DNA from: Paenibacillus aceti
GTDB lineage: Bacteria; Bacillota; Bacilli; Paenibacillales; Paenibacillaceae
Direction: 5' to 3'
Length of the DNA stretch: 64,000 nt
Assembly: GCF_003614185.1 (NCBI RefSeq)
Contig: NZ_KZ987724.1
Location: forward strand, 1,418,037-1,482,036
Positions 20,493 to 49,657 of this stretch are shown piece by piece. The notes beneath the pieces were generated by a model, which worked only from the letters and a program-made list of their open reading frames with translations, was not told where the DNA came from and did not search any database. The translations under genes were made by a program, and so were the position numbers. Each line of letters begins with the position of its first letter. The first letter of the stretch is position 1.

Positions 20493-20613
20493 TTTATCCC
20501 TCCTTTGAATGAATTTCTTCGTACAGTCCAACTCTTATCAGTGTATGCCAATTCAAATTCAATTTTGCTTGTACCTGATGAATAACTACAGCAGCAGTTT
20601 GTAGGGGATAGAA

Positions 20614-21060: not shown

Positions 21061-22446
21061 CTAGACGACCACCGGAACCGCTTTGCCGACCTCGAACAAC
21101 TTACAATCGCCGACCTGACGCTCCGTATGAGCCTTCAACTGATTGCGCTCCAGCAGCTGCCTCAGCTCCTGCCGACTATGCCATGTCCATCCCGCCGTTG
21201 TGACAAGATAGGATACATAGCTGTCATTGTATAAGAATACCGCCTTCTTGCTGATCCGGAACAGCTCCTTCAACATGATCCCCACCAGCGGCTCACTGAT
21301 CATTCGGAAATAATCCGTGACAATGATCACATCAAAATGCTTGGACGGATAGAGCGTATCCACCCCCAGCAAATATACGAACTCCTTCTCTGTCCAGATG
21401 TTCTCATAGCGCTGAATCAAGCCTTTATTTTGCAAAAAGACGTGGGACACTTCCAGAGCAGAAAGGACGGCGCGACTATCCGCCCCGATGATCGCGGAGC
21501 GCTCCGTTCCCTGCACATACTCCTCATTAAGTAGTTCAATCAACTCCTCGCTATAGCCAGGCAAATAATAATGAGTCACCAGCCGATTGAACTTGGCCAT
21601 GATCAGATCGAAGTGCATATCTGCGGAATAAGGATAAATCTCCGTATCGAAGGTACGATGCTTCATATGCATCTTCTTGCGGTTCAAGTAGCTGGATTTG
21701 ATCTTCTGATCGATTTTGTCGTCGGAAGGATGCGGCAGATGCAGCGTGCAAATGTCCTCAGTCGCATACATCTCCGCCCCATGCATATGAAGCTGATAGG
21801 CAAAATCAGTATCCTCCGCCCCCCAGCCCTTCAGCGTCTCATCGAACCCTCCTGCTTGCAGCACGATGTCGCGCGAAGCACTGACGGCGCCGCCCCACCC
21901 CATGGACCACGGGACATCCATCCGATTCAGATCATGATCGACCAGTTCGAAATGCGAGGTGCGCATATCCTCCCACTCGGGATGATACCTTAGCTGCTCA
22001 CAGACAGCAGCAAGATTGGATGGTCTAATATGCTCAATCACAGATAAATCCTGACTAGGCTCAGTAAAAGCCCCCATTACATAATGGTACAGCACCCTAT
22101 TCGTGCTATCCCCGATCTGATTCACTACACGTTCGATAAAAAATTCCGGGATGACAATGCCACAATCGAGAAAAACGAGAATCTTGCCGCTGCTCTCCCG
22201 AATACCTACATTGCGAGTTCGGGAGCGGCAGGATTTCTTATCCCGCTCTAAATAGATATATTTCAAATTCTGAATCTGATCCTGATATGAAGCGATAATA
22301 TCCTGTACCGGCTCAGTGGAGCCATCATCGATAACGACGACCTCAAGCAATATCCCTGTATGGATCTGGTTCGCAATGAAATGGAGCGAACGCTCCAGCT
22401 GCTCCATTTTGTTGTACACAGGAATAATGATCGATACGTCCAACAT
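21061..22446 (-). CDS. GT2-family glycosyltransferase with C-terminal methyltransferase-like region
   Basis: Last gene of operon II. Residues 1-260 are a GT-A/GT2 domain: 'SIIIPVYNK', the DxD-type 'FLDCGIVIP', and 'GWGAEDTDFAYQLHMHG', the acceptor/catalytic 'ED' motif shared with chondroitin-polymerase-like GT2 enzymes. Residues ~300-461 look like a degenerate Rossmann methyltransferase ('FDVIIVTDYFRMISEP' then 'FRISKKAVFLYN'), without a clear SAM glycine loop. The start is the ATG at 22446, 8 bp from an 'aggaga' site. Probable role: transfer of a sugar to the cluster product or to a sugar scaffold, in the cytoplasm. The donor cannot be predicted. Confidence 0.8.
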   Translation of the reverse strand: MLDVSIIIPVYNKMEQLERSLHFIANQIHTGILLEVVVIDDGSTEPVQDIIASYQDQIQNLKYIYLERDKKSCRSRTRNVGIRESSGKILVFLDCGIVIPEFFIERVVNQIGDSTNRVLYHYVMGAFTEPSQDLSVIEHIRPSNLAAVCEQLRYHPEWEDMRTSHFELVDHDLNRMDVPWSMGWGGAVSASRDIVLQAGGFDETLKGWGAEDTDFAYQLHMHGAEMYATEDICTLHLPHPSDDKIDQKIKSSYLNRKKMHMKHRTFDTEIYPYSADMHFDLIMAKFNRLVTHYYLPGYSEELIELLNEEYVQGTERSAIIGADSRAVLSALEVSHVFLQNKGLIQRYENIWTEKEFVYLLGVDTLYPSKHFDVIIVTDYFRMISEPLVGIMLKELFRISKKAVFLYNDSYVSYLVTTAGWTWHSRQELRQLLERNQLKAHTERQVGDCKLFEVGKAVPVVV

Positions 22447-22469
22447 GTACACTCTCTCCTATCTCTATT

Positions 22470-23564
22470 TTACTTGCGAAACTCAAGCTCATCGATTAAC
22501 TGCGTAATCAATGCCTTTTCTGTATCCAGCATCTCCCCAAGTGAGTTCACTAGCGGCTGCAGTATGCTCCGGTTCTGACTCATGAAGCCCTTCAGCATAA
22601 GGTTGCGATGGGTATAGGCTTGCTTCTCCAGCCGCTCGGCCACGGCTAATAACGGAGTATCCTCGGCGAGATGACCTAACTGCTGCAAATATTTGATCCG
22701 CTCCACCATCATCTTCTTATGCTCCCACAGAATATGAAGCTGACGAACGTCGAAATTCTGTGCTCCCTCTATCACGCGCATCACGAATTCCTGGAGATAG
22801 GGATAAATCTCCACGCCGAAATAGCCTTCCATCGGCTGCTGCTGAATACGAAGCCGCTCTGTAGAGTTGCGCCCTTCCAAATAGTCGGTAAGAATCTCAA
22901 TCATCAGTGTCAAGTCAAAATCGAATCTTCCGGCGCCAGCGCCGTATTTACTGCCTTCATAGTCCAGAGGCTCCAGTCTCTTGCAGGAGCTGATCAAGGA
23001 TTGAGTCTCTTTGCCTTGCGAAGAATAGGCTTGGCCCAATTGCTCGAACGTAACCTCCTGCATCGTGAACTGGCGATTCTTATCAAAGATAGCCACATGA
23101 TAGATTTGCCGATCCAGATCATAGCCATAGATGAAGATATCATGGACAAAATGGTTCTGCTGATAGCAGATCGAATTGTGAATATAGAATTCATCCACAT
23201 ACGTGACTACATAATATTTGCGCTCCAGCTGCGTAATCAGATAGCGATGGATATCGACTCCTAACTGATCCAGCAGCACTTTATCCGTATGCTTGTACAT
23301 CAGCCACGGCATATGGGTATAAGCAATCATCAGATCCGGATAGAAATCCAGCCGATATTCCTGCAAATCCTGCAGATAAGGCTTGGAAATGAACAATTGA
23401 ATATAGCTCGTATGAATCCACGGCTGAGCGTACTCGAACGGCTGAAGAATGCCAAGCACATAAGCATGACCTAGAAAACCATATACCTTCGGCATTTCAA
23501 AGGGCAGCTTAACGCTTCTCAACATTTTATTTTCAAGTACTGATTCGATTTCCACGATGTTCAT
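22470..23564 (-). CDS. Family X protein 1 (BtrH-like fold suspected), unknown function
   Basis: About 364 residues from the ATG at 23564 ('tggagg' site 8 bp before). It is a clear paralogue of the protein at 48569-49612: both carry 'DVRxLHxLWEHKxMMxERxKYL' near the C-terminus and a 'H-x4-YG[FY]D' motif in the middle ('HDIFIYGYDLD'). That middle motif, preceded by 'YYVVTYVDEFYI', also occurs in the C-terminal domain of the PKS at 25063-28434 and recalls the BtrH/C39-like papain fold. Here no Cys stands at the place of the PKS domain's 'NCFYNS', so it may be a non-catalytic partner. It sits between a radical SAM gene and a glycosyltransferase gene, probably cotranscribed. No established function. 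Confidence 0.6.
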   Translation of the reverse strand: MNIVEIESVLENKMLRSVKLPFEMPKVYGFLGHAYVLGILQPFEYAQPWIHTSYIQLFISKPYLQDLQEYRLDFYPDLMIAYTHMPWLMYKHTDKVLLDQLGVDIHRYLITQLERKYYVVTYVDEFYIHNSICYQQNHFVHDIFIYGYDLDRQIYHVAIFDKNRQFTMQEVTFEQLGQAYSSQGKETQSLISSCKRLEPLDYEGSKYGAGAGRFDFDLTLMIEILTDYLEGRNSTERLRIQQQPMEGYFGVEIYPYLQEFVMRVIEGAQNFDVRQLHILWEHKKMMVERIKYLQQLGHLAEDTPLLAVAERLEKQAYTHRNLMLKGFMSQNRSILQPLVNSLGEMLDTEKALITQLIDELEFRK

Positions 23565-23607
23565 GTGACTGACCTCCATAATCTTGGTTACATTTTGGCT
23601 AGGCGTA

Positions 23608-24750
23608 TTAGAATGATTCTGGATCAGCAAACATCCGGGTGCAGCGGTTGCACATCATCAGATTCGTCGTCTTCATATAGTCACGGAATCGGGTCGCACG
23701 TTCACCCTCCCACATTTCCGCAAACGTGTTCTCATAGATATTGCCATACTTGAAGTCCGGTAAATCCACACAGGGGTACACATCGCCAGTACGACGGACC
23801 ACCAATTCATGCCAAGGGGCCACGCATTTCGAGCGGCCAAATACATTCTCGATGTCGGTATAATAGTCATGGATATCAATATAATGAGAGGAATCGATAC
23901 CTTCCTCCGCCCATAGTTCCTCCAGCTCCTTCTTCAATAGCTGCGTGTCCATCGGGATCGATTCCTCGACGAAGCCCTGCCAAGCCGGGGAGACATCACA
24001 GTCCAGATCATGCTTCATCTGAGTCGCATAAGCCCGGCCTCGTTCCGGCGTGGTGAACAAGAGCGGGGCCAGATTCACCGATAAGTCGCGGCGTCTTGAC
24101 CACGGATTACGTGGATCATGCAGCACGACCTCCGCATCCGGGAACCGTTCACGGAGCGCTCGCATGAACTGCTTAATACAGAGATAGTTGGAGGGCGAGA
24201 GCACCATCGTAATATTGATAAAAGGGAACATTTTCTTGCGTCGGCGTTTCTCTTCGATCAGCGCGTCGATATTCTCGCAAATCTTCTGGAAGCTGCCTTT
24301 TCCCCGAATCGCATCATGGAACTCCTCAGGTCCATCGATGGAAATATTCATTGCCACGATATTCTTCATAATGAACTCAACCCGGTTCTTGATTAAGGAA
24401 CCATTGGTCAGCAGGTAAATATTCGCCTTGCGCGCTCGTAGATGCTCGACCAGCTCGGTGAAGTCTTTGTACAGCATCGGCTCTCCGCCTGTAATGATGA
24501 CACCGAGGTTCTTATTCACTGCCGTAACCTCATCCAGGAATTTCTTCAAGACATCGATATCCAGCTGTTCACGGATCGCCCGCTGCGGCTCTTTCAGCGC
24601 CCAGCCAGTCTCTCCCCAGATATGACAGAAGTTGCAGCGATAGTTGCACAGCTCTGACGGGAATAACGTAAGCTGCTTAATCTCTGGTGCTAGATTGCGA
24701 ACATGCTCCTCCAGAGCCGTTCCTCCGAGTTTACCTGCCTTGGTTAGCAT
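23608..24750 (-). CDS. Radical SAM/SPASM enzyme 1
   Basis: 380 residues. The radical SAM iron-sulphur site is CxxxCxxC at Cys35, Cys39 and Cys42 ('CNYRCNFC'), followed by 'ITGGEPM' (the GGE motif that binds the SAM amino group). The C-terminal part has a SPASM/Twitch Cys set ('SKCVAPWHE', 'YPCVDLPDFKYGN', 'MMCNRCTRM') for auxiliary clusters. Such enzymes oxidise or cross-link peptides, or dehydrogenate sugars (BtrN in butirosin). Neighbours are a carrier protein upstream (14 bp) and family X protein 1 downstream, so a carrier-bound or sugar substrate is plausible. 'aggaggggg' precedes the ATG. Confidence 0.88.
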   Translation of the reverse strand: MLTKAGKLGGTALEEHVRNLAPEIKQLTLFPSELCNYRCNFCHIWGETGWALKEPQRAIREQLDIDVLKKFLDEVTAVNKNLGVIITGGEPMLYKDFTELVEHLRARKANIYLLTNGSLIKNRVEFIMKNIVAMNISIDGPEEFHDAIRGKGSFQKICENIDALIEEKRRRKKMFPFINITMVLSPSNYLCIKQFMRALRERFPDAEVVLHDPRNPWSRRRDLSVNLAPLLFTTPERGRAYATQMKHDLDCDVSPAWQGFVEESIPMDTQLLKKELEELWAEEGIDSSHYIDIHDYYTDIENVFGRSKCVAPWHELVVRRTGDVYPCVDLPDFKYGNIYENTFAEMWEGERATRFRDYMKTTNLMMCNRCTRMFADPESF

Positions 24751-24764: not shown

Positions 24765-25031
24765 CTATTCCTCACTTTGATTCAAACGGATATAGTTCAT
24801 GATTTGATTGATCGTGCTGAAATTGCGGAAATCAAGATCCTCATCATTCCACGACACGCCGAACTCCATCTCAGTGGCGATTACAAGCTTGATAAAAGTT
24901 AAGGAATTAATGCCTAGTGCTGATAGATCATCATCAGGGCCGCACTTGTCAAGCAGAGCGGGCTCATCCACATTGTCTCGCAGCAGATCCATGACTTTCT
25001 GTCTTAATTCATCCTTCGTTTCGATGGTCAT
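24765..25031 (-). CDS. Discrete acyl/peptidyl carrier protein
   Basis: 88 residues, four-helix carrier-protein size. The phosphopantetheine site is 'ALGINSLTFIKL' with Ser43. It is acidic as usual and has a strong 'aggagg' site. It lies between the terminal PKS gene and radical SAM enzyme 1, so it may carry an intermediate for that enzyme or for chain release. It is distinct in sequence from the carrier at 55984-56265. Confidence 0.88.
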   Translation of the reverse strand: MTIETKDELRQKVMDLLRDNVDEPALLDKCGPDDDLSALGINSLTFIKLVIATEMEFGVSWNDEDLDFRNFSTINQIMNYIRLNQSEE

Positions 25032-25062: not shown

Positions 25063-28000
25063 TTAAATAGGTTGAAGCTCGTTAAAAAGTTGAGACAGAA
25101 ACTGCTGTTCTGCGGTAAGCAACTGCTCCCATTTCGCCTGAATAGCCTCTATTCTCTCCGTCTGATAGACCGGAACGTAGAAGAAGCGGACAAGTCCTTT
25201 GCGGATCGTCTCCCAGTGCTCAACGCATTCATGATGAGCTGCTAATATAGCACCCTCCCCATATAAAGCTGTCAAGCGGTACGCTTCCACCTGCTTCGCA
25301 TTGAGAACCTGATTCAGCGTCTCGATGATCGAATCGATATGCTGTTTCAAGCTGGCTTCAGTGGAGCTGACCTCGATGAACCATGCTGCAAATTGCTGAA
25401 GTATAGCCAGGCTCTCTTGCAGACGATGACGATGCTGTGTCAGATGACTCTCGAAGCGCTGCCTCAATTCGTCAAGCTCAGGCTCCCGGTACGGCGCGCC
25501 CGGCTGGTGCTGGATGATATAATAAGCGCCCCCTTGTTCTTGCTGTTGCCCCTGCGTCTCATAACCTCGGCAGGCACGGACGAGATCCTCGAATGCGATG
25601 AGACAAGGCTTGTACGATAGATTTTCCCGTCGGTCATGCTCGATAATATGGAACATTTCTGTCCCCCTATCAAAACCGTACACCAGCAAGGTATGATCCA
25701 CATGCTGCTTCTGATAGGCATCGCTGCGGAACGGGATCTCATAGCAATCGACCCATACGATCACGGGATTCCCTTGGCTGAGATTGTGGATGATCATCTG
25801 CTTGATATCGATATCTCCATATGCAGGCCGGGGTTGGACGGACAGATTCATCTGTGCGAAGAGCGTCTCCTGTGGCTCTATCTCCTCATAGCACAGCTCA
25901 TAGGCCTGTGTCCCCTCCGGGTCAGCTTGTTGATACAGAAGTAAATCATTGATCAGATACGGCAGAATACTACCCCCAAAATGCTTTACCACTGGAAAAA
26001 AAGAATTATAGAAGCAGTTGCGATAATAGAGATCATTAAACGGCTCGATATTCGGCAGGACGACCGGCGAAATGACCGATTCGCCAGACTGCTGCTCTAT
26101 ATAAGCCGCTGCTTCGCGAATCGTCGAATAACGATATAATTGCTCGGATTCAAAGGGAATTCCGGCTTGCTCCAGCTCGACCTCAAAACGAATAGCGAGG
26201 ATCGAGTTGCCGCCGAGCTCGAAGAAATCATCGTCGATGTCGATCTCCTTGAGCCCAAGCAGATCTGCCCATAGCGCAGCCAAGCGGAGCTCGGTTGACG
26301 TATAACTGCTATCGGCTCTGCCCTTCAGCATTGGCGCATTATCCGCAGCGCTTCGGTTCAGGCTTGCGGATGAAGCCGCACCCGCTTCTTTGTAGGATTC
26401 AGCCGCCATCGGCATCGACCACGCCGTATAAGTGTCTGCCGCGGAATCAATCCAGCAGCGGGATGGTTCGAAGCTGTACACCGGCAGATGCAACTTGGAG
26501 CGCCGCTGTCCCTCATACAACTCCTCCCAATTCACCGCCGCGCCTTGGACATAGAGCCGGGCAAGCTCTTCGATTCCCGCCATATCCAAGCCAGCACCTG
26601 AACTAGCCGCTTGCTGAATCAATTGGTGGGCGGCCTCACTTCGGGTCTTGAGCTCATCCGACGTATATTCCCCTTGCTGCCGCTTCTCTCTGCGGCCACT
26701 TGTCGTCCGATGCTCACTATAAAGAATGCCTTCGCCTGATTCCGCTGCATCCTTAAGCTTCTCCAAGCCCGCTTCTAATGCCGCAGACAGCTTGTCCCTC
26801 AAGCTTGAAATACCATCCGCGATGATCGCTAATCGGCAGCTATAATGTCCCCTTCCTGTCTGCGCTGTGAAGCACAGATCCGCGAAGCTACCATCCAGCT
26901 CAGGCAGCCTGTGGATATAAGCATGCATGAGCCGCTCCAACGCGGGCCTGCTCTTGGCCGACAGCACCGTAAGCCTCGGTTGATCGCCCAGATCCGGTTC
27001 CTGATCCTGTTTCGTGTCGGCTGTGCTTCCCCCGATTAATGGCGCTTCCTCCAGCACAAGATGACAGTTCGTACCGCTGAAGCCAAAGGAGCTTACGCCG
27101 CATCTCCTCGGATGCTCTTCATTCGTCTCCCACGGCTCCAAGCGATCACTGACATAGAGCGGTAAGCTCTCAAAGGGAATATTGCGATTCGGTCTCGTAA
27201 AATGAAGCGTCGGCGGCAGCTTTTTATACTTGAGAGAGACGATCGCCTTCGCCAGTCCAGCCACCCCTGAAGCGGCGTCCAGATGCCCGATATTGCTCTT
27301 GACCGAGCCGATGGCACAGAATTGCTTACGCTTCGTGTAATGTCGGAAGGCCCGGCGAATTCCATCGGTCTCGATCGGGTCACCCAGCTTCGTCCCTGTG
27401 CCATGGGCCTCGATATAGCCGATCGTCTCTGGGTGGACTCCTGCATCCTTCCAGGCCCGTATCAGCAGCTTCTCCTGAGAGGCGGCATTCGGTGCGGTCA
27501 AGCCTACAGACGTCCCGTCCTGATTGATGGCGCTGCCGCGAATGACCGCATGGATCGGGTCTTGATCCCGCAGAGCCTGGCTTAGCGGCTTCAGCAGCAA
27601 GGCGACCGTCCCTTCCCCCCAGACCGTGCCGTCAGAACTGTCATCGAAGGCACTCGTCCTCCGATTCGCCGATTCGATGCCGATCTCGAACAGTCCATCC
27701 ACAGGCATCAGACATACCTTCACTCCGCCCGCAATCGCCATCTCGCACTCGGCATTCCTTAGCGCCATACAGGCGAGATGAACCGCTACTAGTGAAGAGG
27801 AACAGGCCGTATCCACCAACAAGGCAGGGCCCTGCAAATCGAGCATATAGGCGATGCGCCCCGCAATGATGGAAGGTGTGTTACCTATACTAGCCATCGG
27901 AATCTGCGAGGGTTGATTCTTCGTAATATACTGGCCATAAGCCGGCCAATCCGCATAGCCGATATAGACACCGGTCTTGCTGCCTTGAATACGACTGCCC

Positions 28001-28434
28001 CCATACCCTGCGTCCTCAATGGCCTCCCAGGCGGCCTGCAGGAATAGCCGTTGATTCGGGTCCATCAAGGAGGCTTCCTTCGGAGACAGATTGAAGAAGG
28101 CATAGTCGAATTTGTCGATATCCTGCATAAATCCGCCATGACTGAATTGAATGCCGTCCGCTGGAAGCTGGGTAAAGGTGCGGATGAAGCTGAGGCTATC
28201 ACGCTGCCGCTCCTCCGAGAGCGGACCGATGCTGTCAAGCCCCTGCGTGAGGTTATCCCAGAACTGCTCGATATGATCTGCTCCCGGCATCCTCAAGGAA
28301 AGACCGATGATCGCAATCTCCTTACTCTCCGTCGTCTGTTGCTCCTTAAGCGTTCGAAGCAGCTGCAGGGCGGCCTTCTCATCCAATTGGCCTTTTGCCA
28401 CCTGCTCAAAGATTTGACTCGCTAGTTTATCCAT
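25063..28434 (-). CDS. PKS: ketosynthase-ACP with C-terminal BtrH-like release domain
   Basis: 1123 residues. Residues 1-35 resemble a docking helix. KS ~38-455 has Cys in 'DTACSSSLVAVH', and the two His in 'EAHGTGTKLGDP' and 'KSNIGHLDAASG'. No AT domain follows, only the KS flanking region ending 'LPVYSFEPSRCWI', so loading needs the free AT encoded at 32483. ACP ~705-775 carries Ser in 'LGGNSILAIRF'. The last ~330 residues are neither TE nor reductase: they begin 'YYRNCFYNSFFPVVKHFGG' (candidate Cys nucleophile, about residue 806) and contain 'VIVWVDCYEIPF' and 'DHTLLVYGFD' (His/Asp), which resembles the BtrH-type acyltransferase fold. Probable terminal module. Its ATG overlaps the previous stop (ATGGATAA). 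Confidence 0.88.
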   Translation of the reverse strand: MDKLASQIFEQVAKGQLDEKAALQLLRTLKEQQTTESKEIAIIGLSLRMPGADHIEQFWDNLTQGLDSIGPLSEERQRDSLSFIRTFTQLPADGIQFSHGGFMQDIDKFDYAFFNLSPKEASLMDPNQRLFLQAAWEAIEDAGYGGSRIQGSKTGVYIGYADWPAYGQYITKNQPSQIPMASIGNTPSIIAGRIAYMLDLQGPALLVDTACSSSLVAVHLACMALRNAECEMAIAGGVKVCLMPVDGLFEIGIESANRRTSAFDDSSDGTVWGEGTVALLLKPLSQALRDQDPIHAVIRGSAINQDGTSVGLTAPNAASQEKLLIRAWKDAGVHPETIGYIEAHGTGTKLGDPIETDGIRRAFRHYTKRKQFCAIGSVKSNIGHLDAASGVAGLAKAIVSLKYKKLPPTLHFTRPNRNIPFESLPLYVSDRLEPWETNEEHPRRCGVSSFGFSGTNCHLVLEEAPLIGGSTADTKQDQEPDLGDQPRLTVLSAKSRPALERLMHAYIHRLPELDGSFADLCFTAQTGRGHYSCRLAIIADGISSLRDKLSAALEAGLEKLKDAAESGEGILYSEHRTTSGRREKRQQGEYTSDELKTRSEAAHQLIQQAASSGAGLDMAGIEELARLYVQGAAVNWEELYEGQRRSKLHLPVYSFEPSRCWIDSAADTYTAWSMPMAAESYKEAGAASSASLNRSAADNAPMLKGRADSSYTSTELRLAALWADLLGLKEIDIDDDFFELGGNSILAIRFEVELEQAGIPFESEQLYRYSTIREAAAYIEQQSGESVISPVVLPNIEPFNDLYYRNCFYNSFFPVVKHFGGSILPYLINDLLLYQQADPEGTQAYELCYEEIEPQETLFAQMNLSVQPRPAYGDIDIKQMIIHNLSQGNPVIVWVDCYEIPFRSDAYQKQHVDHTLLVYGFDRGTEMFHIIEHDRRENLSYKPCLIAFEDLVRACRGYETQGQQQEQGGAYYIIQHQPGAPYREPELDELRQRFESHLTQHRHRLQESLAILQQFAAWFIEVSSTEASLKQHIDSIIETLNQVLNAKQVEAYRLTALYGEGAILAAHHECVEHWETIRKGLVRFFYVPVYQTERIEAIQAKWEQLLTAEQQFLSQLFNELQPI

Positions 28435-31400
28435 TCGCTACCTCCATCCCGCGATATCGATCTACCGCATGCTCGATGGATAATTCGCCCCGTTTTATTT
28501 GTTCCAACATCGTAAATATAGCTTCATCAAAAGAGTCCGCCTCGACCGATTCCAGCCCGAATCCCTCCGCTTCTGCCTGATTGGAGACGAGGGAATACAG
28601 ATGATCGGTGATCCGGGTAATAGTCGGATAAGAGAACATATCCGCCACGGTAGTCAGCCCGGGGAAGGCCTCATCGAGATAGTGCTGCACTCTCGTGATC
28701 AGGATCGAGTCTCCGCCGATCTCGAAGAAATTGGCATTCACGTTCAATTCCTCGTAGCCAAGCACTTCCTTCCAGGCTTCCGTCACCACTTCTTCGACCT
28801 CAAGGAGACGGACAGACCGTAGATTTCCCGCCTTGGAATTCCCATTTGCCGTGTCTCCTGAACGCTCCTGTACTGTGGCTGCTTGAGCCTTCCGGATGGA
28901 CATGGATCGAGCAAGCGCCTGTTGAAGCTGCTCCGATAGTCGAAATGGCAGCAGATCCCCTAATGCAAACAGATGGCTGCTGCTATTCCATTGCCCGACA
29001 AGGGCTTGTCGAACTGGGGCGGCTTCAGCAACGGTGACAGCGGTGAGAAGCGTCTGGAAGGCCTGAACTCCATCCTCCGCAGGCATCACACAGAACATTT
29101 CCTTCGACTCATCCGCTTCCCCAGTCCCATCCAGCTGCTCCTGTTGCCAGGCTGGCCAATTGATCGCCAAGGTTCTCAGGCCAAGGCGGCTCCGATAAGC
29201 CGCATATCCATCCAAATATGCATTGCCTGCCGTATATGGGCCAGAGCCAATTCCGCCAACCAGCGTAATGGCCGAGGAGAAAAGAATCAGGAAATCCGGC
29301 TCATCCTGCCGTGTGAGATGATCCAGCAGCCAAGTCCCGGTCGTCTTGGCTTCGATGATGGATCGCAGCTCTTCCGCTGACAGTTGACTCATCAGATTGC
29401 CTGCGGAGATCCCGGCTGCATGAACGATACCAGCGATGCGCCCATAGCGTGATCGCAGACTCGTAATCGCCTCATCCAACTGCGTATAATCCGCAGTATC
29501 CGCCTGGATAACTTCAATCTGCGCGCCGACAGCCTCCATTTCACGGATGGCCTGTATCGCCTGAGCGATCTTAGTGTTCTGATTCGACTCGATTAGGGAT
29601 GCCCACTGCTCACGTGGAGGCAAGCCTGTTCTGCCCATCAAAGCCAGGCGAATGCGGCCTTCGGATGCTCTAACCAGATGCGCCGCAATGATCAGCCCGA
29701 TGCTGCCAAGGCCGCCGGTAATAAGATAGATTTCTTCTTCCCCCTTGAAGACAATCGGTAACATCCCCGAATCGATGGGCTTGGCCGCTGGCATCTCCAG
29801 TAGATCTACCCGTTCCACATATCGCTTGCCTTCGCGGTAAGCCGTCCAATACTCATTTGAATCATGCTCCAGCTCCGCGCATACGCTCTCGACCTGATCC
29901 GATCGCTCATCCACATCGATCCAGCGGATTCTTAGCTGTGGCTGCTCCCAAATGACAGCTTTGCTCAGCCCGATCATGGCGAATTGCTCTGGCCGCACCC
30001 TCGCCTGCTCCGTCGTCACTTCATCCGCATAGGAGGTGACAAGTGCTACAGCTATCGATTCTTGCCCATCCCATCGTGCTAGTGCATGCAGCAATCGGTA
30101 GAGCCGATAAATGGATCGCTCCTGCTGCTCTTCATGCTGCTTCAAGCTTTCCTCTTCGCAACCAGCATAATTAGCGGCAGCAAACCGTAAATCAACGAGT
30201 TGCAGAGAAACGGCTGCTGGAGAATCACAACTTTCTAATGGGACGATTACCTCTCCCAGCAACCGTTCATAATCTTCGATTTCATCCCGAATCATATATT
30301 TCAACGTATTGACTCGCTCATAATGATCTCCCATAGTAGCTTCGATCACCTGCCATCCGTCCGCGTTCCAGCGACTCACGAAAGGCAAGCTGTCCTGTTG
30401 CGCTTCCGTCAGGAGTAGCATCGTCCCTCTCTCGCTGCGCCTACGACTGCTCTTCGGCAGCGGTTCATGCAGCCATTTCCGCTGATGATAGAAGGATGAT
30501 GCATCGTTAATAGGATGGCTCTTGGCCAAGTCATGGCGAGCTCTATTCCGGGATGCTCGCTGCGGCGGCTTCACCCAACAGCGATGCCGATCGAACGGAT
30601 ATGCCGGGAAGCTGAGGCGTCTTCTGCGCTCCTGCCGGTATAGACGATCCCATGGGATCGTAGCCCCTTGCACATAGAGCCTGCCAAGCTCTGCACAAAG
30701 CGCGTGATCGCCCTTGTCAGAGGAAGATGCGAAGGCGGCATAAGCAGTCTCAGCTGCCGCGCGTATCGCTTCAGGCTGCGATCCTGCAAGGCTATTCGTA
30801 TCTCCGACACATAAGTAACTGTTCGCTGCTCCTTGCCCTTCCTTGAATCCCATAGCTTTAAAATGGCTCAGCTCATGAAGCAGTTCATCTACACACTTGA
30901 CTGCAATCGCCATCCGATAGCGATAATGCCCTCTACCCGTGCTCAAGGTATAACAGAGATCCGCCAAATCGAGGAATGGATGGTCCGTCAGATACTTCAG
31001 ACTTGCAGCCACATAGTTCTCTAATGCCGACTCCGTCTGAGCCGACAATACGAACAGCCGGTATTCATTCTGCTTCGGCGTAAGCCTGGACGAACTACGT
31101 TCCTCTGGGAACTCCTCGACAATCACATGGCAGTTCGTACCGCTAATTCCGAAGGAGCTGACCCCACAGCGGCGAGGAGCTAGTTCGCTCTCCCATTTCA
31201 TCAGCCTGTCGTTCACATAGACCGGAGATTCCGCAAAATCGATCACCCGGTTCGGCCGCTCAAAATGGAGCGTTGGATAGAGGCATTTGTTTTTTAGTGA
31301 TAGAACGGCTTTGAGCAGGCCGGCGATCCCCGCGGTATTATCCAAATGCCCGATGCTGCTCTTGAGCGCCCCGATGGCGCAAAACTGTCGTTTATCTGTG

Positions 31401-32458
31401 AAGCGCCGGAATGCCCGCCTAATCCCTTCAACCTCGATGGGATCTCCCAGCTTGGTAGCCGTGCCATGGGTCTCGATATATCCGATCGTCTCAGGATCGA
31501 TCCCGGCCCGCTTCCACGCCTCGACAATGACGGCTTCCTGGGCCTCAGCATTCGGAGCGGTAATCCCGACGGAGCCGCCATCCTGATTCAGTGCGCTCGA
31601 TTTGATCACGCCATATATATGATCCCGAGCTTCAAGGGCTTGTTCGAGCGGCTTCAACATCATCGCGACTACGCCTTCTCCAGCTCCGGTCCCATCCGCC
31701 TGGTCATCGAAGGTTCTGGCCCGGGAAGTAGAGGACTCAATACCGACCTCATACTCTCGGATCGGAATCAGATGCAGCTGAATCCCCCCTGCGATCGCGG
31801 AATCGCACTCGCCATTACGGATCGCCTGGCAGGCAAGATGGACGGCCACGAGGGAGGAAGAACAAGTCGAATCGACGATGAAGCTGGGTCCCCTAAGATC
31901 CAGCAAATACGACAAGCGGCTCGCGATAATGGGGCGTACATTGCCCGCCATCGACATGGAAATCCCCTCCGGCTCCACCTCGCGGATCAGCTTCAAATAG
32001 TCGGCATCCGAGCCATAACCTACATAGACGCCTGTCCGGCTCCCGACCAGCTTGTCGCCGCCGTAGCCGGCGTCCTCGATCGCCTGCCAGGCGGTCTCCA
32101 GGAATAACCGTTGGTTGGGATCCAGCAGGCTCGCTTCCCGCGGCGAGAGCTTAAAGAAGGAATAATCAAATTTATCGATCTCATCAAGATAGGCCGCCTC
32201 TCCATAGGCCAAATCCTCCGGCTTCAGCCCGAGCTGCTGAAAATATAAATCCGTATCCTGCTTGCGTAGAGAAGGAATCGGCCTAACGCAATCCCGGCCT
32301 GTCTCAAGATTGTAGGCAAATTGCTCGACCGTATCCGCCAGCGGCAGCTTGACCCCGATTCCAACAATCGCGATCTCCTGACTGGAGGCTTGATCGAAGA
32401 CAACGCCCTCCAGTTCAGCAGTAGACCTGCGATTTAATTTGATTGACTGAAAATCCAC
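28427..32458 (-). CDS. PKS: ketosynthase-ketoreductase-ACP (trans-AT)
   Basis: About 1343 residues. KS ~25-450: Cys in 'DSTCSSSLVAVH', His in 'ETHGTATKLGDP' and 'KSSIGHLDNTAG'. No AT domain. KR: structural half ~640-900 and catalytic half from ~905 with NADPH loop 'ITGGLGSIG' and Ser/Tyr/Asn in 'FSSAIT' and 'PYTAGNAYLD', so it should be active and give a beta-hydroxy group. ACP ~1215-1290 with Ser in 'IGGDSILITRV'. I prefer the GTG at 32458, 8 bp after a near-perfect 'ggaggtgatc' site; an ATG 15 bp upstream overlaps that site. It stands between the free AT gene and the terminal PKS gene, in line with module order. Confidence 0.9.
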   Translation of the reverse strand: MDFQSIKLNRRSTAELEGVVFDQASSQEIAIVGIGVKLPLADTVEQFAYNLETGRDCVRPIPSLRKQDTDLYFQQLGLKPEDLAYGEAAYLDEIDKFDYSFFKLSPREASLLDPNQRLFLETAWQAIEDAGYGGDKLVGSRTGVYVGYGSDADYLKLIREVEPEGISMSMAGNVRPIIASRLSYLLDLRGPSFIVDSTCSSSLVAVHLACQAIRNGECDSAIAGGIQLHLIPIREYEVGIESSTSRARTFDDQADGTGAGEGVVAMMLKPLEQALEARDHIYGVIKSSALNQDGGSVGITAPNAEAQEAVIVEAWKRAGIDPETIGYIETHGTATKLGDPIEVEGIRRAFRRFTDKRQFCAIGALKSSIGHLDNTAGIAGLLKAVLSLKNKCLYPTLHFERPNRVIDFAESPVYVNDRLMKWESELAPRRCGVSSFGISGTNCHVIVEEFPEERSSSRLTPKQNEYRLFVLSAQTESALENYVAASLKYLTDHPFLDLADLCYTLSTGRGHYRYRMAIAVKCVDELLHELSHFKAMGFKEGQGAANSYLCVGDTNSLAGSQPEAIRAAAETAYAAFASSSDKGDHALCAELGRLYVQGATIPWDRLYRQERRRRLSFPAYPFDRHRCWVKPPQRASRNRARHDLAKSHPINDASSFYHQRKWLHEPLPKSSRRRSERGTMLLLTEAQQDSLPFVSRWNADGWQVIEATMGDHYERVNTLKYMIRDEIEDYERLLGEVIVPLESCDSPAAVSLQLVDLRFAAANYAGCEEESLKQHEEQQERSIYRLYRLLHALARWDGQESIAVALVTSYADEVTTEQARVRPEQFAMIGLSKAVIWEQPQLRIRWIDVDERSDQVESVCAELEHDSNEYWTAYREGKRYVERVDLLEMPAAKPIDSGMLPIVFKGEEEIYLITGGLGSIGLIIAAHLVRASEGRIRLALMGRTGLPPREQWASLIESNQNTKIAQAIQAIREMEAVGAQIEVIQADTADYTQLDEAITSLRSRYGRIAGIVHAAGISAGNLMSQLSAEELRSIIEAKTTGTWLLDHLTRQDEPDFLILFSSAITLVGGIGSGPYTAGNAYLDGYAAYRSRLGLRTLAINWPAWQQEQLDGTGEADESKEMFCVMPAEDGVQAFQTLLTAVTVAEAAPVRQALVGQWNSSSHLFALGDLLPFRLSEQLQQALARSMSIRKAQAATVQERSGDTANGNSKAGNLRSVRLLEVEEVVTEAWKEVLGYEELNVNANFFEIGGDSILITRVQHYLDEAFPGLTTVADMFSYPTITRITDHLYSLVSNQAEAEGFGLESVEADSFDEAIFTMLEQIKRGELSIEHAVDRYRGMEVANG

Positions 32459-32482
32459 CCTGATCACCTCCATCCAACATCA

Positions 32483-33766
32483 TTAAGCGATTACCCATGA
32501 ATCAGGCGAGAATTCTGGAAATAATGCGGTCGTTCCTGTCTTGTTCAGAATGTCGGCGAATCGTTCCCGCTGCTCTTGCTCCGGCACCATCTTGGTATCC
32601 AGCATCTGCTTCAACAGCTTAAGCGCCTTCTGCATCTGTGCTGGCGTGGGCACTTGTCCCGTCTCATCCAGCTGCTCCTGCAATCGCTGAACTTGCCGGT
32701 AAGGAAGGACGAAGCCTTGTTCATACGCTTCTGAATCCCAATTGCGATTGCGCGTGCACACGGCTGCTGCCAGACATCTTGTCACCACATTATTGGAAGC
32801 CTGCTGGCGGGCTTGCTCCAGTTTGTCGGCTTCCAGCTCCCGCTGCAGCAGATCGAGCTCCGCTGTTTTCTCATACGGGTAGCAGGTGATAGACTTGGCA
32901 TCGATCCGCATGAGCTGCGTCAGCACCTGCTTAGCGCCGAGTTCAACAGCAATGCTGATCCCTTGCTCCACTAGCAGCTTCATCGTCCAATCCCAGCGCA
33001 CCGGCGCAGTAAGCTGCTCGGTCAGATAGACGACCACCTGTTCCGGGGATTCATACGGTTGGCCTGTAACATTAGACAGCACCGGCCACTGGAACGGACT
33101 GTAGGTGCAGGAAGCCAGCTCTTCTCTAAAGCGGCTGGCCGCTCCCTTCATAAGCGGGCTGTGAAATGGCGCGCTTACTTGCAGGAACGCGATCCGTGCC
33201 CCAAGGGCTTCGAGCTCATGAGCCGCCTTCTCCACCGCTAGGCGATGACCGGAGATGACGAGTTGCCCGGAAGAGTTATAGTTGGAGATGACCACCTCCT
33301 GCTGATCGGAAATAAATACGCCCCGACAAATCTCCTCCACTCGGGCCGGATCGCTGCCCATAATCGCGCACATCGCACCGATGCCTTCGGCCGCCGCCTC
33401 CTGCATCAGCTGACCTCGGCGTCTGACGAGCCTTAACGCATCCGGGAAAGTCATCACACCTGCACAGGTCAGCGCCGAGAACTCGCCTAAGCTATGTCCC
33501 GCTGAATACGCCGGAACTACGCCGATTTCTTCCATATAAATCCGGAAGGCGGCGACGCTGACGGTAAGCAGTGCAGGCTGTGCATTTTCCGTTCGAGTCA
33601 GCTCCTCAGAGACCCCTCTTGTAAGAAGTGCTTGCAGATCAAAGCCCAGTACATCATTCGCCTCAGCGAATACCGCCCTTGCTGTTGCCGATCGTTCCAT
33701 CAGATCCAGGCCCATACCGATATATTGCGAGCCTTGACCCGGAAATAGAAGCGCCAGCTTTCTCAT
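32483..33766 (-). CDS. Free-standing malonyl-CoA acyltransferase (trans-AT)
   Basis: About 427 residues; transfers malonyl from CoA to the ACPs of the two AT-less PKS proteins. Seen: 'LLFPGQGSQYIGMG', nucleophile Ser92 in 'GHSLGEF', and the 'APFHSPLM' region with the catalytic His. About 100 extra residues at the C-terminus are of a type I have seen on trans-ATs in Bacillales clusters. I start it at the ATG at 33766, 8 bp after 'aaggagg'; a TTG nine codons upstream lacks a site. It lies between the second NRPS gene and the KS-KR-ACP gene. Confidence 0.92.
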   Translation of the reverse strand: MRKLALLFPGQGSQYIGMGLDLMERSATARAVFAEANDVLGFDLQALLTRGVSEELTRTENAQPALLTVSVAAFRIYMEEIGVVPAYSAGHSLGEFSALTCAGVMTFPDALRLVRRRGQLMQEAAAEGIGAMCAIMGSDPARVEEICRGVFISDQQEVVISNYNSSGQLVISGHRLAVEKAAHELEALGARIAFLQVSAPFHSPLMKGAASRFREELASCTYSPFQWPVLSNVTGQPYESPEQVVVYLTEQLTAPVRWDWTMKLLVEQGISIAVELGAKQVLTQLMRIDAKSITCYPYEKTAELDLLQRELEADKLEQARQQASNNVVTRCLAAAVCTRNRNWDSEAYEQGFVLPYRQVQRLQEQLDETGQVPTPAQMQKALKLLKQMLDTKMVPEQEQRERFADILNKTGTTALFPEFSPDSWVIA

Positions 33767-33798
33767 TAACGATTCCTCCTTAAGATGCTTCAAGATGC

Positions 33799-36700
33799 TT
33801 ACGACGTTACGCGGCTTTCGATCAGTTGACGCAGAAGATCCACATATCCGTTGGCTAGCATCTGAATCGCCTCTTTTTTCAGCCGCTGATCATTGAATTT
33901 GAGTGAGATCGATAGCTGATCTTCATCCATCTGATCCTCGATTTCCCAAGCCAGATCATAGATGTCAAGCCATACCGCATCCATGTTCATATTAAGATCT
34001 TGCCTGCGGTAGATCAGAGGAAGTACCTCATCCCTCCCCTTCTGCACATGTACGTCCAGCATGCGTTCCATAAGATAGGCCTGCGTACCGTTCACCCGGC
34101 TCTGATGCACCTGCCGGAACAGCTCCTCAAATCCGCCAATCTTCGTAAAATCAAGCGATATCGGAACGACTCGTTCACCTTCCGCCTGCAGGCAGTGAAT
34201 CACCGCATCAGACTGCTCATTCCATTCACGGAACAGATACAGCGCCATCCCGGTACACACATCGTAAGACTCCACTTGAGTCTCAGCAGCAAGTCCATCT
34301 ATACCCGCTCTAAGCCGGGGTTGAAGATGGAAACGCTTGATGCCCATCCCGTTGCCATTCACCTGATGCTGGAAGAAGGCTGCTGGAAGCTGCTGATAAA
34401 CGTTCCATGCTGCCTGCTCCCCAAGCTGCTGCGCACCTTGCTTCCCGTCAATCCATTGAGCCAGCTTGGCGATGGTCGTATAGGAGAAGAGATCCACGAT
34501 CTGGATGCCCCAGCCGTATTCATTCTCCAGCTTCGCATGCAGCTGCATGAGCAGGATCGAGTTGCCGCCGAGATCAAAGAAATGCTCATGCAGTCCGATC
34601 TGCTCTAGCTTCAGCACTTCCTGCCATACCCGGCGGATGCGGCTCTCCGTCTCACCTGCCTCTTCCTCGGTCCATGAAGCCTCCTGATCGGCAGCAGCCA
34701 GCCTGTCCGTGACCTGCAGCAGCGCTTTGCGATCCAGCTTGCCATTGGGGGTCTTAGGAATCTCAGTGATCCGGTAAAAGAAGGTTGGAATCATATAAGC
34801 AGGCAACACTGCCGATAGCTCATCTCGCAACTCATTGGTTGTTACCTCTACCTCATGATTAAGCTTCACATAAGCGGCGAGGAGCATCATCCCGTGTTCA
34901 TCTTCATGCGCCAGCACAACCGCTTCATCGATCGCCTCCAGAGCAAGCAAGTGATGCTCGATATCCCCCGGCTCCACGCGATAGCCGCGAATCTTCACCT
35001 GCTGGTCATTCCGCCCGACATACAACAGGCTTCCATCAGGTAGCCATAGTCCAACATCGCCGGTGCGATACATGCGCACTTCAGGATCATAGGGATCAGC
35101 GCAAAAATAACGTTCCGTAAGCTCCGGCCGATTCAGATAGCCCCTCGCCACCCCCGCACCTGCGACGCAGATCTCTCCCGGTACGCCTACAGGCAGCGGA
35201 TGTCCGTAAGGATCAAGCACATAGACGCGGTAATTCAAAATGGGCTTGCCGATGGGAATGCTCATTCTGGCAACCGACTCCGGTAGACAGCGGTGATACG
35301 TCGCACATACCGTCGCTTCTGTCGGCCCGTACGTGTTATAGACCTCCGCTCGCTTAAGCAGCTCTGTCATATAATCCGGCTTCAGAACATCGCCGCCGCT
35401 GATGAAAATTCGGACGCTGTCCATTCCAGCTTGCTTGTTCAGCTCGTTCATCAGCAGGGGAGAGCAGGACACGATCGTGATCCGGTGCCGATCGATTAAC
35501 TTAACCAGCTTCGGCATATCGATCACATCGGTCTTGCGAGCAATCACGACCTGTCCGCCCGCGAGCAGCACCGGATACACCTCCTCGACGAATTGGTCGA
35601 AGGAGCAGGAGGCCTGCTGCAGGAAAGTATCTCTGCTGCTTAAGCGGAATTCATGCTGGAACGCTTCAACATAAGCAAGTAGATTGCCATGCTCCACCAC
35701 GACCCCCTTCGGCGTTCCGGTCGAACCCGACGTGTAGAGGATATAAGCGGCATCGCCGTGTTGATTCACAAGTGGAACAGGCTCACCTTCAATTGCGTCC
35801 GGTGCTGGCATCCCCTCCTCCATACAAATGCTAATGCCAGAAAATTCAATCGAATCCGGAAGCTCTGCATCTCTCACGACTAATATGCTTGCTCCGCTGT
35901 CCTGGAGAATCTGGTTAATCCGGCCGGGCGCATATTCATAATCTATCGGCACATAAGCAGCTCCTGATTTCAAAACCGCCAGCATAGCAATCAGGAGCTG
36001 CCCGGAGCGATCCATCCATAGGGCGACAGGCTGCTCTGCCCCAATACCAAGCGCTCGGAGCTGCCGCGCCAGCCGATTGGCTGCGCGGTCGATCTCCTGA
36101 TAGGTGAAGCTCTCTTCACCACAGATCACTGCTATACTGTCCGGTGTTTCCATGACCCGTTTCTCGAATTGAAACGGAATAAGCTCTTGCTGCTCCCTCT
36201 GTCGCTGACTTGCCATAAGTCCAGTAGAAGCTTCCCTGTTAAATGAAGTCAGCAGCTCTTCGATCTCCTCTGCCGTCAACAGTTCAAGCTCATTGATCTT
36301 CAGCTCCGCCTTGCTGTACATTTGCAGGATGATCTGCCTGTAGTGACCCGCTATCCTGGTGATCATCGACCTGGAGAAAGAGTCGGGATCATAGGCAAAC
36401 TCCAGCGCCAGCTCTCCTGTTTCCAGCGGCATTGCGCCGATCGTCAGTCCATAATGGGTGGCTTCCTCCATCTCATACTTCTCAATACGCAAGGCTCCTG
36501 CTCGTCCTATACTTGTATCCAAAGGATAGTTCTCCACCACCATAATGGAGTTGAACAATGGCTCATGAGCATCGGCACCGCTATAAGCGTTGATATCAAT
36601 GAGCGGCGTCAGCTCATAATCTACACGCCGCTGGAGCTGCTCATTGACCGCTCCGACCAGCTGCCGGACCGGCTCCTCCGCTGTCCAGCATATCCGCAGT

Positions 36701-37656
36701 GGGATCGTATTGATGAATAAACCGATCATTTCTTCGATTCCAGACAGCTCTGGTGTTCGGCCTGATACGGTTGTGCCGAATAGTACATCCTCGCTCCCGC
36801 AATAACGGCCAAGCAGCAAGCCCCAAGCTGTATATAGATAAGCAGCCAGCGTAACCTGATGCCGCTGCGTATAGTGAGAGATTGCCTCCACCTCTTGGAG
36901 TGACAGGGTTAGCATATGGAGAGACTTACTCTCTTCCCTCTCGCGCTGGTCCAACCTCTCTGACAGCTCGGTCAGCCGCGTGCGCTCCTGCCATCCTTTT
37001 AACGCCTGCTCCCAATACTGTTTCTGTTTAACTTTGTCCTGACGCTGCAGCAATTGAACATACTGCTTGAACGGAGTTTTGGCATTTGCTCGAACCGTTG
37101 CTGGAATCCCCGCCGCGGTGCCATCAACACCATCAACAATGGCTTGATAAGCCTGCATGAACTCCTTAAGCAGCAGTCCATTGCTCCAGCCATCGAATAA
37201 GATATGATGCCAGGTGATGATCATCTCGCAGCGCTTATCATTAATCAGGCATAGCGTAACTCGCAGCGGCTCGGCTTCAAGATCCAGCTCTTCCCGGCGA
37301 TCCCGTGCTTTAAGTTCCGTAATCATCAGCTCCGCTTGCTCGGTGGAATAGCTGGAATAATCCAATACCTTAACCGGGGTCTCCAGCTCGCGCAGTACGA
37401 TCTGAACCGGCTTCTCCAGCTTCTCCCAACGATAAACGGTTCGCAGCATATCATTCGTACGGGCAACATTCTGCCAGGCTTGCCGCAGGGCATCCACCGA
37501 GTAGTCACCCGACAAGCGAATGGAGAACTGCTGCGTGTAGTACCCCTTATCCTTGTCGCTTCTGTAATGGAACAGCAGGCCCTCCTGCAGGGGAGTCAAT
37601 GCCATGATGTCTTCCACATTCGCCTTATCCAATTTACTTGTACGTCTCTCTCTCAA
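33799..37656 (-). CDS. NRPS module C-A-PCP plus a truncated condensation-like domain; basic residue predicted
   Basis: About 1285 residues. C ~15-450 with HHxxxDG ('WHHILFDGWS'). A ~475-985 ('YILYTSGSTGTPKG', 'NTYGPTEATVCAT', 'TPNGKLDRK'). I read the pocket code as D-Q-E-S-I-G-T-V-C-K, close to codes for lysine (DAESIGSVCK in bacitracin synthetase, from memory); the Glu at the third position favours a cationic side chain. PCP ~995-1065 with Ser in 'LGGNSILLMQL'. The last ~200 residues look like only the C-terminal lobe of a condensation domain, with no HHxxxDG. Start: TTG at 37656, 8 bp from 'gaggag'; the ATG at 37674 overlaps the preceding stop (ATGA) but has no site. Confidence 0.9.
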   Translation of the reverse strand: MRERRTSKLDKANVEDIMALTPLQEGLLFHYRSDKDKGYYTQQFSIRLSGDYSVDALRQAWQNVARTNDMLRTVYRWEKLEKPVQIVLRELETPVKVLDYSSYSTEQAELMITELKARDRREELDLEAEPLRVTLCLINDKRCEMIITWHHILFDGWSNGLLLKEFMQAYQAIVDGVDGTAAGIPATVRANAKTPFKQYVQLLQRQDKVKQKQYWEQALKGWQERTRLTELSERLDQREREESKSLHMLTLSLQEVEAISHYTQRHQVTLAAYLYTAWGLLLGRYCGSEDVLFGTTVSGRTPELSGIEEMIGLFINTIPLRICWTAEEPVRQLVGAVNEQLQRRVDYELTPLIDINAYSGADAHEPLFNSIMVVENYPLDTSIGRAGALRIEKYEMEEATHYGLTIGAMPLETGELALEFAYDPDSFSRSMITRIAGHYRQIILQMYSKAELKINELELLTAEEIEELLTSFNREASTGLMASQRQREQQELIPFQFEKRVMETPDSIAVICGEESFTYQEIDRAANRLARQLRALGIGAEQPVALWMDRSGQLLIAMLAVLKSGAAYVPIDYEYAPGRINQILQDSGASILVVRDAELPDSIEFSGISICMEEGMPAPDAIEGEPVPLVNQHGDAAYILYTSGSTGTPKGVVVEHGNLLAYVEAFQHEFRLSSRDTFLQQASCSFDQFVEEVYPVLLAGGQVVIARKTDVIDMPKLVKLIDRHRITIVSCSPLLMNELNKQAGMDSVRIFISGGDVLKPDYMTELLKRAEVYNTYGPTEATVCATYHRCLPESVARMSIPIGKPILNYRVYVLDPYGHPLPVGVPGEICVAGAGVARGYLNRPELTERYFCADPYDPEVRMYRTGDVGLWLPDGSLLYVGRNDQQVKIRGYRVEPGDIEHHLLALEAIDEAVVLAHEDEHGMMLLAAYVKLNHEVEVTTNELRDELSAVLPAYMIPTFFYRITEIPKTPNGKLDRKALLQVTDRLAAADQEASWTEEEAGETESRIRRVWQEVLKLEQIGLHEHFFDLGGNSILLMQLHAKLENEYGWGIQIVDLFSYTTIAKLAQWIDGKQGAQQLGEQAAWNVYQQLPAAFFQHQVNGNGMGIKRFHLQPRLRAGIDGLAAETQVESYDVCTGMALYLFREWNEQSDAVIHCLQAEGERVVPISLDFTKIGGFEELFRQVHQSRVNGTQAYLMERMLDVHVQKGRDEVLPLIYRRQDLNMNMDAVWLDIYDLAWEIEDQMDEDQLSISLKFNDQRLKKEAIQMLANGYVDLLRQLIESRVTS

Positions 37657-37670
37657 TTCACTGTCTCCTC

Positions 37671-40600: not shown

Positions 40601-40757
40601 TGGATTTATCCATCATATCTTCGATATAATCATCAATATCGCTAGTTGTGGCTGAACCGATGGCAGATTCCGCTGCGGACAGGCTTCCCTGGGTCGTACT
40701 CATGAGAAGAACAGCGATTATCCCTATCGATAACAACAGCCTTGATAGTTTATTCAT
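37671..40757 (-). CDS. ClbP/ZmaM-like prodrug peptidase fused to an ABC exporter
   Basis: About 1028 residues in one chain. Signal/TM at 8-30. A serine beta-lactamase-fold peptidase follows (~40-385) with SxxK at Ser94-Thr-Ser-Lys97, the Tyr motif 'EYATINY' (Tyr188) and 'HAGGNPNY' as the third box, all facing the outside. Then a three-helix segment, a six-helix exporter domain (~490-790) and an ATPase of the PvdE/SyrD type: Walker A 'GGNGSGKST', signature 'LSTGQRKRL', Walker B 'ICLFDEWAADQDP'. ClbP-class enzymes cut an N-acyl-D-Asn cap; ZmaM and XcnG have such ABC fusions, to my knowledge. Its own cluster has an Asn-epimerase NRPS module, which matches. Starts at ATG 40757, overlapping the previous gene by 8 bp. 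Confidence 0.92.
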   Translation of the reverse strand: MNKLSRLLLSIGIIAVLLMSTTQGSLSAAESAIGSATTSDIDDYIEDMMDKSKIPGMSVVIVQGNETVYQKGFGYADIKHDVPVTPETLFELGSTSKAFTALALLQLEDQGLVNLEDSVSQYLPWFETTYKKKPADIRLKHLLHHTSGIPFHSIADIPPADDDLALERTVRTQIGQKLEHEPGEKYEYATINYDVLALIIQQVSGMSYEQYIGQHVLEPLNLQQTYMFREDAAREDMAVGYKLSVLRPVAYDAPMYRGNTPAGYIISNAVDVAAWLKIQMGTAPEANSFETWLARSHEPDRSVAPSGDGSSYAAGWSVYQDGTGMLAHAGGNPNYSTYFVLRPADGYGVAVLTNMNSPYSGAAAQGIMNMLVGKEVPEPASDMYRSIDAISSVVLLLTAPVLLLVIWLTGKAVWQAIRGGRRYVGRHATTATGFVLFALFMAGIAYCLSQIPNTLFWGVNWSFVQVWAPNTLIYAVFSLFATIFLFGLYFLFTTLFPRSDDRSFFAITLLSVASGFGNALIIFIVNETLNRDLDQFQSGMLLYFILGIAIYVFGQKLVRTRLVRIANDMVYEKRMELLGKILNTSYQKIEGIEDGKIPASLNNDTETISGFSNIVVTGATSFVTLLSCFVYMGMISPLGVVMAIGFIVAAAGIHYFTGLKANQLWEQTRDIQNVFFRFIHDLTGGFKELSLNRNKRADFKQDMQDNCHSYREKRIGGDLKFANVNVIGELLFTFVIGAVVFLFPILFSELKVSTLRNYVFVLLYMTGPVHGILGTIPNIFRVRISWNRINELSRELDSIQEAQQQAAPALEVAEPLELKLQSVEYHYGNHDGDSFAVGPIDCSFRAGQVTFITGGNGSGKSTLAKLITGLYEPVQGGITVNGQSVSTQELSQHFSAIFSDFYLFEKLYGISYSSKQTEIEHYLKVLHLQDKVEIRDGVLNTTKLSTGQRKRLALLISYLEDRPICLFDEWAADQDPEYRAFFYHNLLPELKQRGKCVIAITHDDRYFHMADQVIKMEIGQVVNSLLPA

Positions 40758-49612: not shown

Positions 49613-49657
49613 CTGATTTTCTCCCTTCTGATGAGTGATATGAAAATGCAGAAATGC

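Follow-up and report, generated by a model that had tools for sequence, protein, structure and literature searches.

A BtrH/CcbD-fold domain behind the last carrier of a Paenibacillus polyketide synthase, a candidate amide-forming release domain

How does an assembly line that lacks a thioesterase release its chain? This question is raised by a gene cluster of Paenibacillus aceti contained in a 64,000-nucleotide stretch of contig NZ_KZ987724.1 (hereafter, the window). Its terminal polyketide synthase (PKS) module, a 1123-residue protein encoded by the open reading frame (ORF) 25063..28434 on the minus strand, consists of a ketosynthase (KS), an acyl carrier protein (ACP), and a C-terminal domain of the BtrH/CcbD type. 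As chain release sets the terminal structure of a polyketide or peptide antibiotic, the function of this domain matters. We propose that it probably acts in cis as a cysteine-dependent carrier-protein acyltransferase similar in kind to BtrH, CcbD, and CtaG, and that it would replace the thioesterase and release the chain as an amide. The observations bearing directly on this proposal are the domain order, the predicted fold, a conserved Cys-His-acid set, the position behind the carrier, and the lack of a thioesterase match. The cluster would probably encode an antibiotic-producing bacterial assembly line that ends in a cysteine-dependent acyl-transfer domain. Domains of this type attach building blocks to amines in antibiotics of the lincomycin and butirosin types, and many related bacteria share the fusion.

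According to Pfam, the protein comprises a complete ketosynthase (residues 38–412), KS-associated and linker domains up to residue 554, a PP-binding domain (the ACP, 717–779), and BtrH_N (PF14399, 856–931). The active-site motifs of the KS and the ACP are intact. The BtrH_N match (E 1.8e-9) scores 38.4 bits, above the curated cut-off of 29.7, and spans only positions 57–132 of the 134 of the profile; the Cys-bearing N-terminal part of the domain was assigned through the family alignment and the structural model. An earlier note on this DNA, written from the sequence alone, had recognized a BtrH-like domain at the end of the PKS, and rightly so. The motifs that it quoted are all present: Cys807 lies in YYRNCFYNSFF, Asp896 in VIVWVDCYE, and His914 in DHTLLVYGFD, with Glu932 18 residues after His914. 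The note had also called for a comparison with C39 peptidases, and here Peptidase_C39_2 (PF13529) reached only 18.4 bits, below its cut-off of 24. As the C39-like entry 3erv fits only the N-terminal half, a C39 peptidase was rejected as the nearest kin. At E 0.01, the domain was not matched by any NCBIfam family.

The AlphaFold2 model of the domain has a confidence score (pLDDT) of 92.1. Fold matches over the whole domain length were obtained with AziU3, the top structural match, CcbD, and CtaG, and AziU3 and CcbD were also recovered by Foldseek. Based on the predicted model and these full-length matches, both a papain-like half and a C-terminal helical half appear to be present.

We compared the catalytic positions in two sets of sequences. 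The first set has 45 members: the window, L044, and 43 database loci. Six positions never vary in it, namely the Cys, the Asp, the two His of an HxxH motif, a Tyr, and a Glu in the C-terminal part; for the Cys this is partly built in, since one of the two patterns in the genome scan behind the 43 loci was the Cys motif. As the triad acid, 43 sequences have Glu and two have Asp. To counter the pattern bias, 393 genomes of the order were searched with a profile, without requiring the Cys motif. Among 40 of the 94 matches obtained, hand-picked for diversity (five were already in the first set, and the profile was itself built from first-scan loci), the Cys, the Asp, the two His, and the Tyr are each found in 40/40, the acid is Glu in 35 and Asp in five, and the C-terminal Glu is kept in 38. 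A putative Cys-His-Glu/Asp catalytic set is therefore present in all sequences of both sets, and its conservation appears to be more than chance. The Cys-His-Asp triad suggested in the earlier note thus stands for the Cys and the His, and is to be amended for the acid, mostly a Glu.

Hydrolysis has to be considered at this point. The N-terminal fold is, by structural comparison, also that of Cys-dependent peptidases and phytochelatin synthase, and no further amine-making gene is kept alongside the cluster across the five relatives compared. The papain-like domain might then act as a thioesterase, yielding a beta-keto acid, from which loss of CO2 may give a methyl ketone. However, the three best structural neighbors, those covering both halves, are non-peptidases, and the invariant Asp896 is spaced like Asp114 of CcbD, described as an acceptor-binding residue in the text available from PMC12945683. 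We consider hydrolytic release unlikely.

The distribution and the surroundings of the domain are in agreement with a terminal role. In the profile search, a domain match with an E value of 1e-30 or lower was obtained in 71 of the 393 genomes; of the 94 matches, 58 lie in open frames of at least 900 residues, 35 in frames of 300–400, and one in a short frame. The 43 loci comprise 24 PKS fusions (23 orthologous ones and L077, with KS, ketoreductase [KR], and ACP), 12 fusions to nonribosomal peptide synthetases (NRPSs) ending in adenylation (A) and thiolation (T) domains, a contig-end fragment with a carrier, a carbamoyltransferase fusion (L075), and five free-standing proteins. With a profile built from five carriers of the window, a carrier was detected at most 200 residues upstream of the domain in 37/43 loci, compared with 22/43 for an earlier, narrow motif; the six exceptions are L075 and the free-standing proteins. 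A Pfam check of seven fusions likewise found PP-binding in six and none in L075. Phylogenetically, a single clade (24 rows including the window, 100/100) holds the PKS fusions of Paenibacillaceae, and the NRPS fusions are spread over several groups, with weak deep branches. Given the carrier position and these architectures, the domain seems to hold the site behind the carrier where a release domain would sit. In viral contigs, 89 pattern matches were obtained, none of which was confirmed.

No thioesterase was found among 26 window ORFs (11.8–60.6 kb) in Pfam scans with E limits from 0.001 to 1. PF00975 does not match the PKS protein at E up to 1, and neither of its two matches in the whole genome lies within the window. 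The same scans turned up no thioester-reductase family; of reductase type they gave the KR in the first PKS module and, outside the cluster, a short-chain dehydrogenase (59763–60572). The absence of a thioesterase or terminal reductase from the operon, as stated in the earlier note, is borne out by these scans.

By analogy, chain transfer to an amine is the best-supported mechanism, because the full-length structural neighbors include CcbD and CtaG. The position of the domain points to the cis ACP as the donor, and its kinship with CcbD-type proteins to an amine as the acceptor. A chain of the form N-acyl-D-Asn-(amino acid)-(C2, hydroxy)-(C2, keto) would arrive on the ACP of the last module, and Cys807, activated by His914 and Glu932, would accept it as a thioester. 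An amine held near Asp896, either free or tethered to a discrete ACP, would then attack, and the chain would depart as an amide. After export of the product, the S12 peptidase/ABC (ATP-binding cassette) protein would remove the acyl-D-Asn cap. The direct transfer to an amine put forward in the earlier note is upheld to this extent; the aminosugar that it proposed as the acceptor is a suggestion drawn from the analogy with CcbD and BtrH. Conserved sugar or amine genes were sought around the cluster, and none was general. What the upstream regions of five relatives (G055, G047, G050, G043, and G002) have in common with the window is limited to generic histidine-kinase/response-regulator and ABC-ATPase matches; the other window genes at 47.8–56.0 kb were not found there. 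A sugar-isomerase-like gene and one for a discrete BtrH_N protein occur in L037, a distant relative; this combination is not general.

Several points weigh against amide release by this domain, beginning with the missing amine-making gene mentioned above. Identity to the structural neighbors is only 10–16%. A search of PDB sequences with the domain profile gave no significant match, AziU3/Azi29 appearing only at E 0.56–0.59, and CtaG is absent among the 50 Foldseek matches listed. The residue equivalence with CcbD was deduced from order and spacing, not from a residue-level superposition. BtrH_N is detected at E 1e-5 in only four of seven fused relatives, one of them just below the cut-off. 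The free-standing relative L081 adjoins a thioesterase-family gene, so both can coexist. Finally, a shared fold does not by itself determine the reaction, because AziU3, from the azinomycin pathway, is an aziridine-forming enzyme whose reaction is not an acyl transfer. By analogy with this top structural match, the domain could be a tailoring catalyst and not a transferase. This we regard as very improbable: the Cys-His-acid set is invariant, matching the one described for CcbD (PMC12945683, in the text available), and the domain stands at the terminus of an assembly line for which the window showed no other release enzyme.

Two genes immediately downstream of the PKS gene call for a further alternative. 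A discrete ACP and a radical S-adenosylmethionine (SAM)/SPASM enzyme follow the PKS in 23/23 orthologous loci. The radical SAM enzyme is the best conserved of the cluster proteins compared (best-segment identity 67–95%, median 81%); the median for the discrete ACP is 70%, and that for the PKS 53% in 21/23 loci, the PKS of the other two being fused to the preceding module and matching best to that module. A discrete ACP-like ORF is present in 38/43 loci; in one of these the match is weak, and two lack the Ser motif that was sought. The domain might accordingly hand the chain over without releasing it, from the PKS ACP to a thiol, a hydroxyl, or another nucleophile on the discrete ACP, for the radical SAM enzyme to act on before a later release. 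However, discrete ACPs are generally common near such clusters, and the window cluster has no second protein of this fold carrying the conserved Cys; we judge this hand-over unlikely too, and place it after hydrolysis.

The amide-forming proposal can itself be extended to these genes. The earlier note did not mention that the cluster encodes a second protein of the same fold (22470–23630), devoid of the conserved Cys. A second BtrH-like protein is present in 18/23 orthologous loci, 17 nearest to 22470 and one nearest to a third such protein of the window (48569–49612, minus strand), also of the Cys-less family. In this family, a His was equated with the Cys by position, as it opens the first helix; the profile alignment of the two families begins only downstream of the Cys region. 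A sequence search of solved structures with the Cys-less family gave no significant match. Tentatively, and with considerable doubt, the PKS-fused domain may condense the chain with an amine tethered to the discrete ACP, which the radical SAM enzyme would have made or altered there, the protein at 22470–23630 being a non-catalytic partner in a mixed dimer. If true, a papain-fold condensation domain would be operating between two carriers inside an assembly line, and would be a general alternative to condensation and thioesterase domains in Bacillota.

Beside the third BtrH-like protein, the minus-strand region 49658–55997 encodes another radical SAM/SPASM protein, a pair of ABC-2 exporter proteins with their ATPase, and a product with weak resemblance to glycosyltransferases. 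The region 48569–55997 is probably a separate small cluster; none of the five relatives compared has it alongside the PKS cluster. At another locus (L068:11311–17496), the radical SAM gene opens a 2062-residue open frame, the rest of which has no Pfam match at E 0.001.

The known enzymes of this kind are free-standing, and what appears new is the fusion in cis behind an assembly-line carrier. The lincosamide condensation enzymes CcbD and LmbD are free-standing and handle one amino acid, whereas the window domain is fused behind a PKS ACP and would handle a longer hybrid chain. CcbD, about 11% identical to the window domain, transfers an amino acid from its carrier to an aminosugar amine. CtaG (closthioamide) is free-standing and was proposed to transfer acyl groups from carrier to carrier; the titles of its PDB entries (variants C11A, H128A, and D144N) suggest an Asp as third residue, mostly Glu in the window family. 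AziU3 was crystallized in complex with AziU2, according to the entry titles. BtrH, which we take to be free-standing, was compared through its Pfam family PF14399 and not by its own sequence. It is part of the acyl carrier protein:aminoglycoside acyltransferase of butirosin biosynthesis (PMC10318531, in the text available). In calcimycin biosynthesis, CalA3 releases a PKS chain by C–N bond formation, as stated in the accessible part of PMC10006239, but through a ketosynthase domain and not a papain-fold one. The earlier note knew of no described PKS with its fusion, and no PKS or NRPS fused to a BtrH/CcbD domain was found described in the open-access literature, most subscription literature lying outside this scope; this is not proof of absence. 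A CcbD-like, amide-forming domain would be present in cis on PKS and NRPS modules of many Paenibacillaceae and some Clostridia. Annotation could easily overlook it, as Pfam reaches only part of the scanned relatives and NCBIfam does not match the domain. If the proposal holds, amide-ended products can be predicted from dozens of uncharacterized clusters, and the domain could be reused for amide making on assembly lines.

The genes of the cluster lie on one strand, separated by gaps of −29 to +31 bases (table 1). They encode, in order, an NRPS read as having condensation (C), A, T, and epimerization (E) domains, an MGT glycosyltransferase, the S12 peptidase/ABC protein, a C-A-T NRPS, an acyltransferase (AT), the KS-KR-ACP module, and the KS-ACP-domain protein, then the discrete ACP, the radical SAM/SPASM enzyme, the second BtrH-like protein, and a family-2 glycosyltransferase (GT2). 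This order is retained in five relatives. Read by eye from the sequence, the specificity code of the first A domain is presumably Asn-like, and that of the second only loosely Lys-like.

Table 1. Features of the cluster and of the terminal domain, in window coordinates
Feature	Position	Strand	Evidence
First NRPS module, two condensation-type domains, read as C-A-T-E	42034..46572	−	Pfam; E domain by eye
MGT-family glycosyltransferase, tailoring or self-protection	40750..42003	−	NCBIfam TIGR01426 above cut-off
S12 prodrug peptidase fused to ABC exporter (ZmaM-like)	37671..40778	−	Family matches; ClbP alignment
NRPS module C-A-T	33799..37674	−	Pfam
Free-standing malonyl-type AT, presumably serving both modules in trans	32483..33793	−	Pfam Acyl_transf_1; NCBIfam fabD above cut-off
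PKS module KS-KR-ACP	28427..32473	−	Pfam
Terminal PKS module KS-ACP-[BtrH/CcbD domain], without AT, KR, or thioesterase	25063..28434	−	Pfam and motif reading
BtrH/CcbD-fold putative acyltransferase domain, residues 790–1123; papain-like half to about residue 980, then C-terminal helical half	25066..26067	−	Pfam BtrH_N, AlphaFold2 model, fold matches
Cys807 codon, proposed nucleophile	26014..26016	−	Cys in 45/45 and 40/40; first residue of first helix in AlphaFold2 model
Asp896 codon, placed like CcbD Asp114 (acceptor-binding) by spacing to His; putative equivalence	25747..25749	−	Asp in 45/45 and 40/40
His914 codon, proposed catalytic base	25693..25695	−	His in 45/45 and 40/40
Glu932 codon, proposed third triad residue	25639..25641	−	Glu in 43/45 and 35/40, Asp in remainder
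Discrete ACP with GINS motif; may be a second partner for the domain	24765..25031	−	Pfam PP-binding
Radical SAM/SPASM enzyme	23608..24750	−	Pfam; CxxxCxxC
Second CcbD-fold protein, without conserved Cys	22470..23630	−	
Family-2 glycosyltransferase, in 11/23 orthologous loci	21061..22452	−	Pfam

The peptidase encoded at 37671–40778 aligns with full-length ClbP (7ul6, E 2e-57). With residue numbers matched by motif, it keeps the SxxK, the Tyr, the D-Asn-binding Asn, the Ser/Thr, the Glu, and the transmembrane Trp pair, with a Thr for Ser188. Because these residues are kept and the first module has a presumably Asn-like code, the cluster is likely an N-acyl-D-Asn prodrug pathway. It shares with the ClbP/ZmaM-type pathways (zwittermicin, paenilamicin, and edeine) an S12 peptidase–ABC fusion of ZmaM-like length and what we take to be an Asn-type first module. 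The catalytic and D-Asn-recognition roles of the ClbP residues, and the identity of the ClbP entries, are from PMC9889268, the available text of which makes no mention of a BtrH/CcbD-fold release domain in these pathways.

A giant DUF11/DUF7507 repeat protein (15606–20531, minus strand) adjoins the window cluster, and similar frames lie beside the P. tepidiphilus cluster (L076:10173–18397), which may be a coincidence. The carbamoyltransferase fusion of Paenibacillus psychroresistens (L075:7925–11020) has a discrete ACP directly downstream. Two discrete BtrH-like proteins (L037:12528–14084 and L074:11979–13625) have an additional C-terminal domain; that of L074 resembles AziU2/Azi28 (E 0.0075), as though AziU3 and AziU2 were fused. 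In Paenibacillus amylolyticus (L081), the free-standing BtrH-type protein is encoded near FkbH, 3-hydroxyacyl-CoA dehydrogenase, acyl-CoA dehydrogenase, ACP, peptidase/ABC, and thioesterase-family genes, a set reminiscent of hydroxymalonyl-ACP supply in zwittermicin clusters. Two more BtrH_N-type proteins, one above and one below the cut-off, are encoded elsewhere in the genome that holds the window, at G000:C1:2969223–2976417 (L002 and L003), near adenylation-like and ABC transporter genes (L047).
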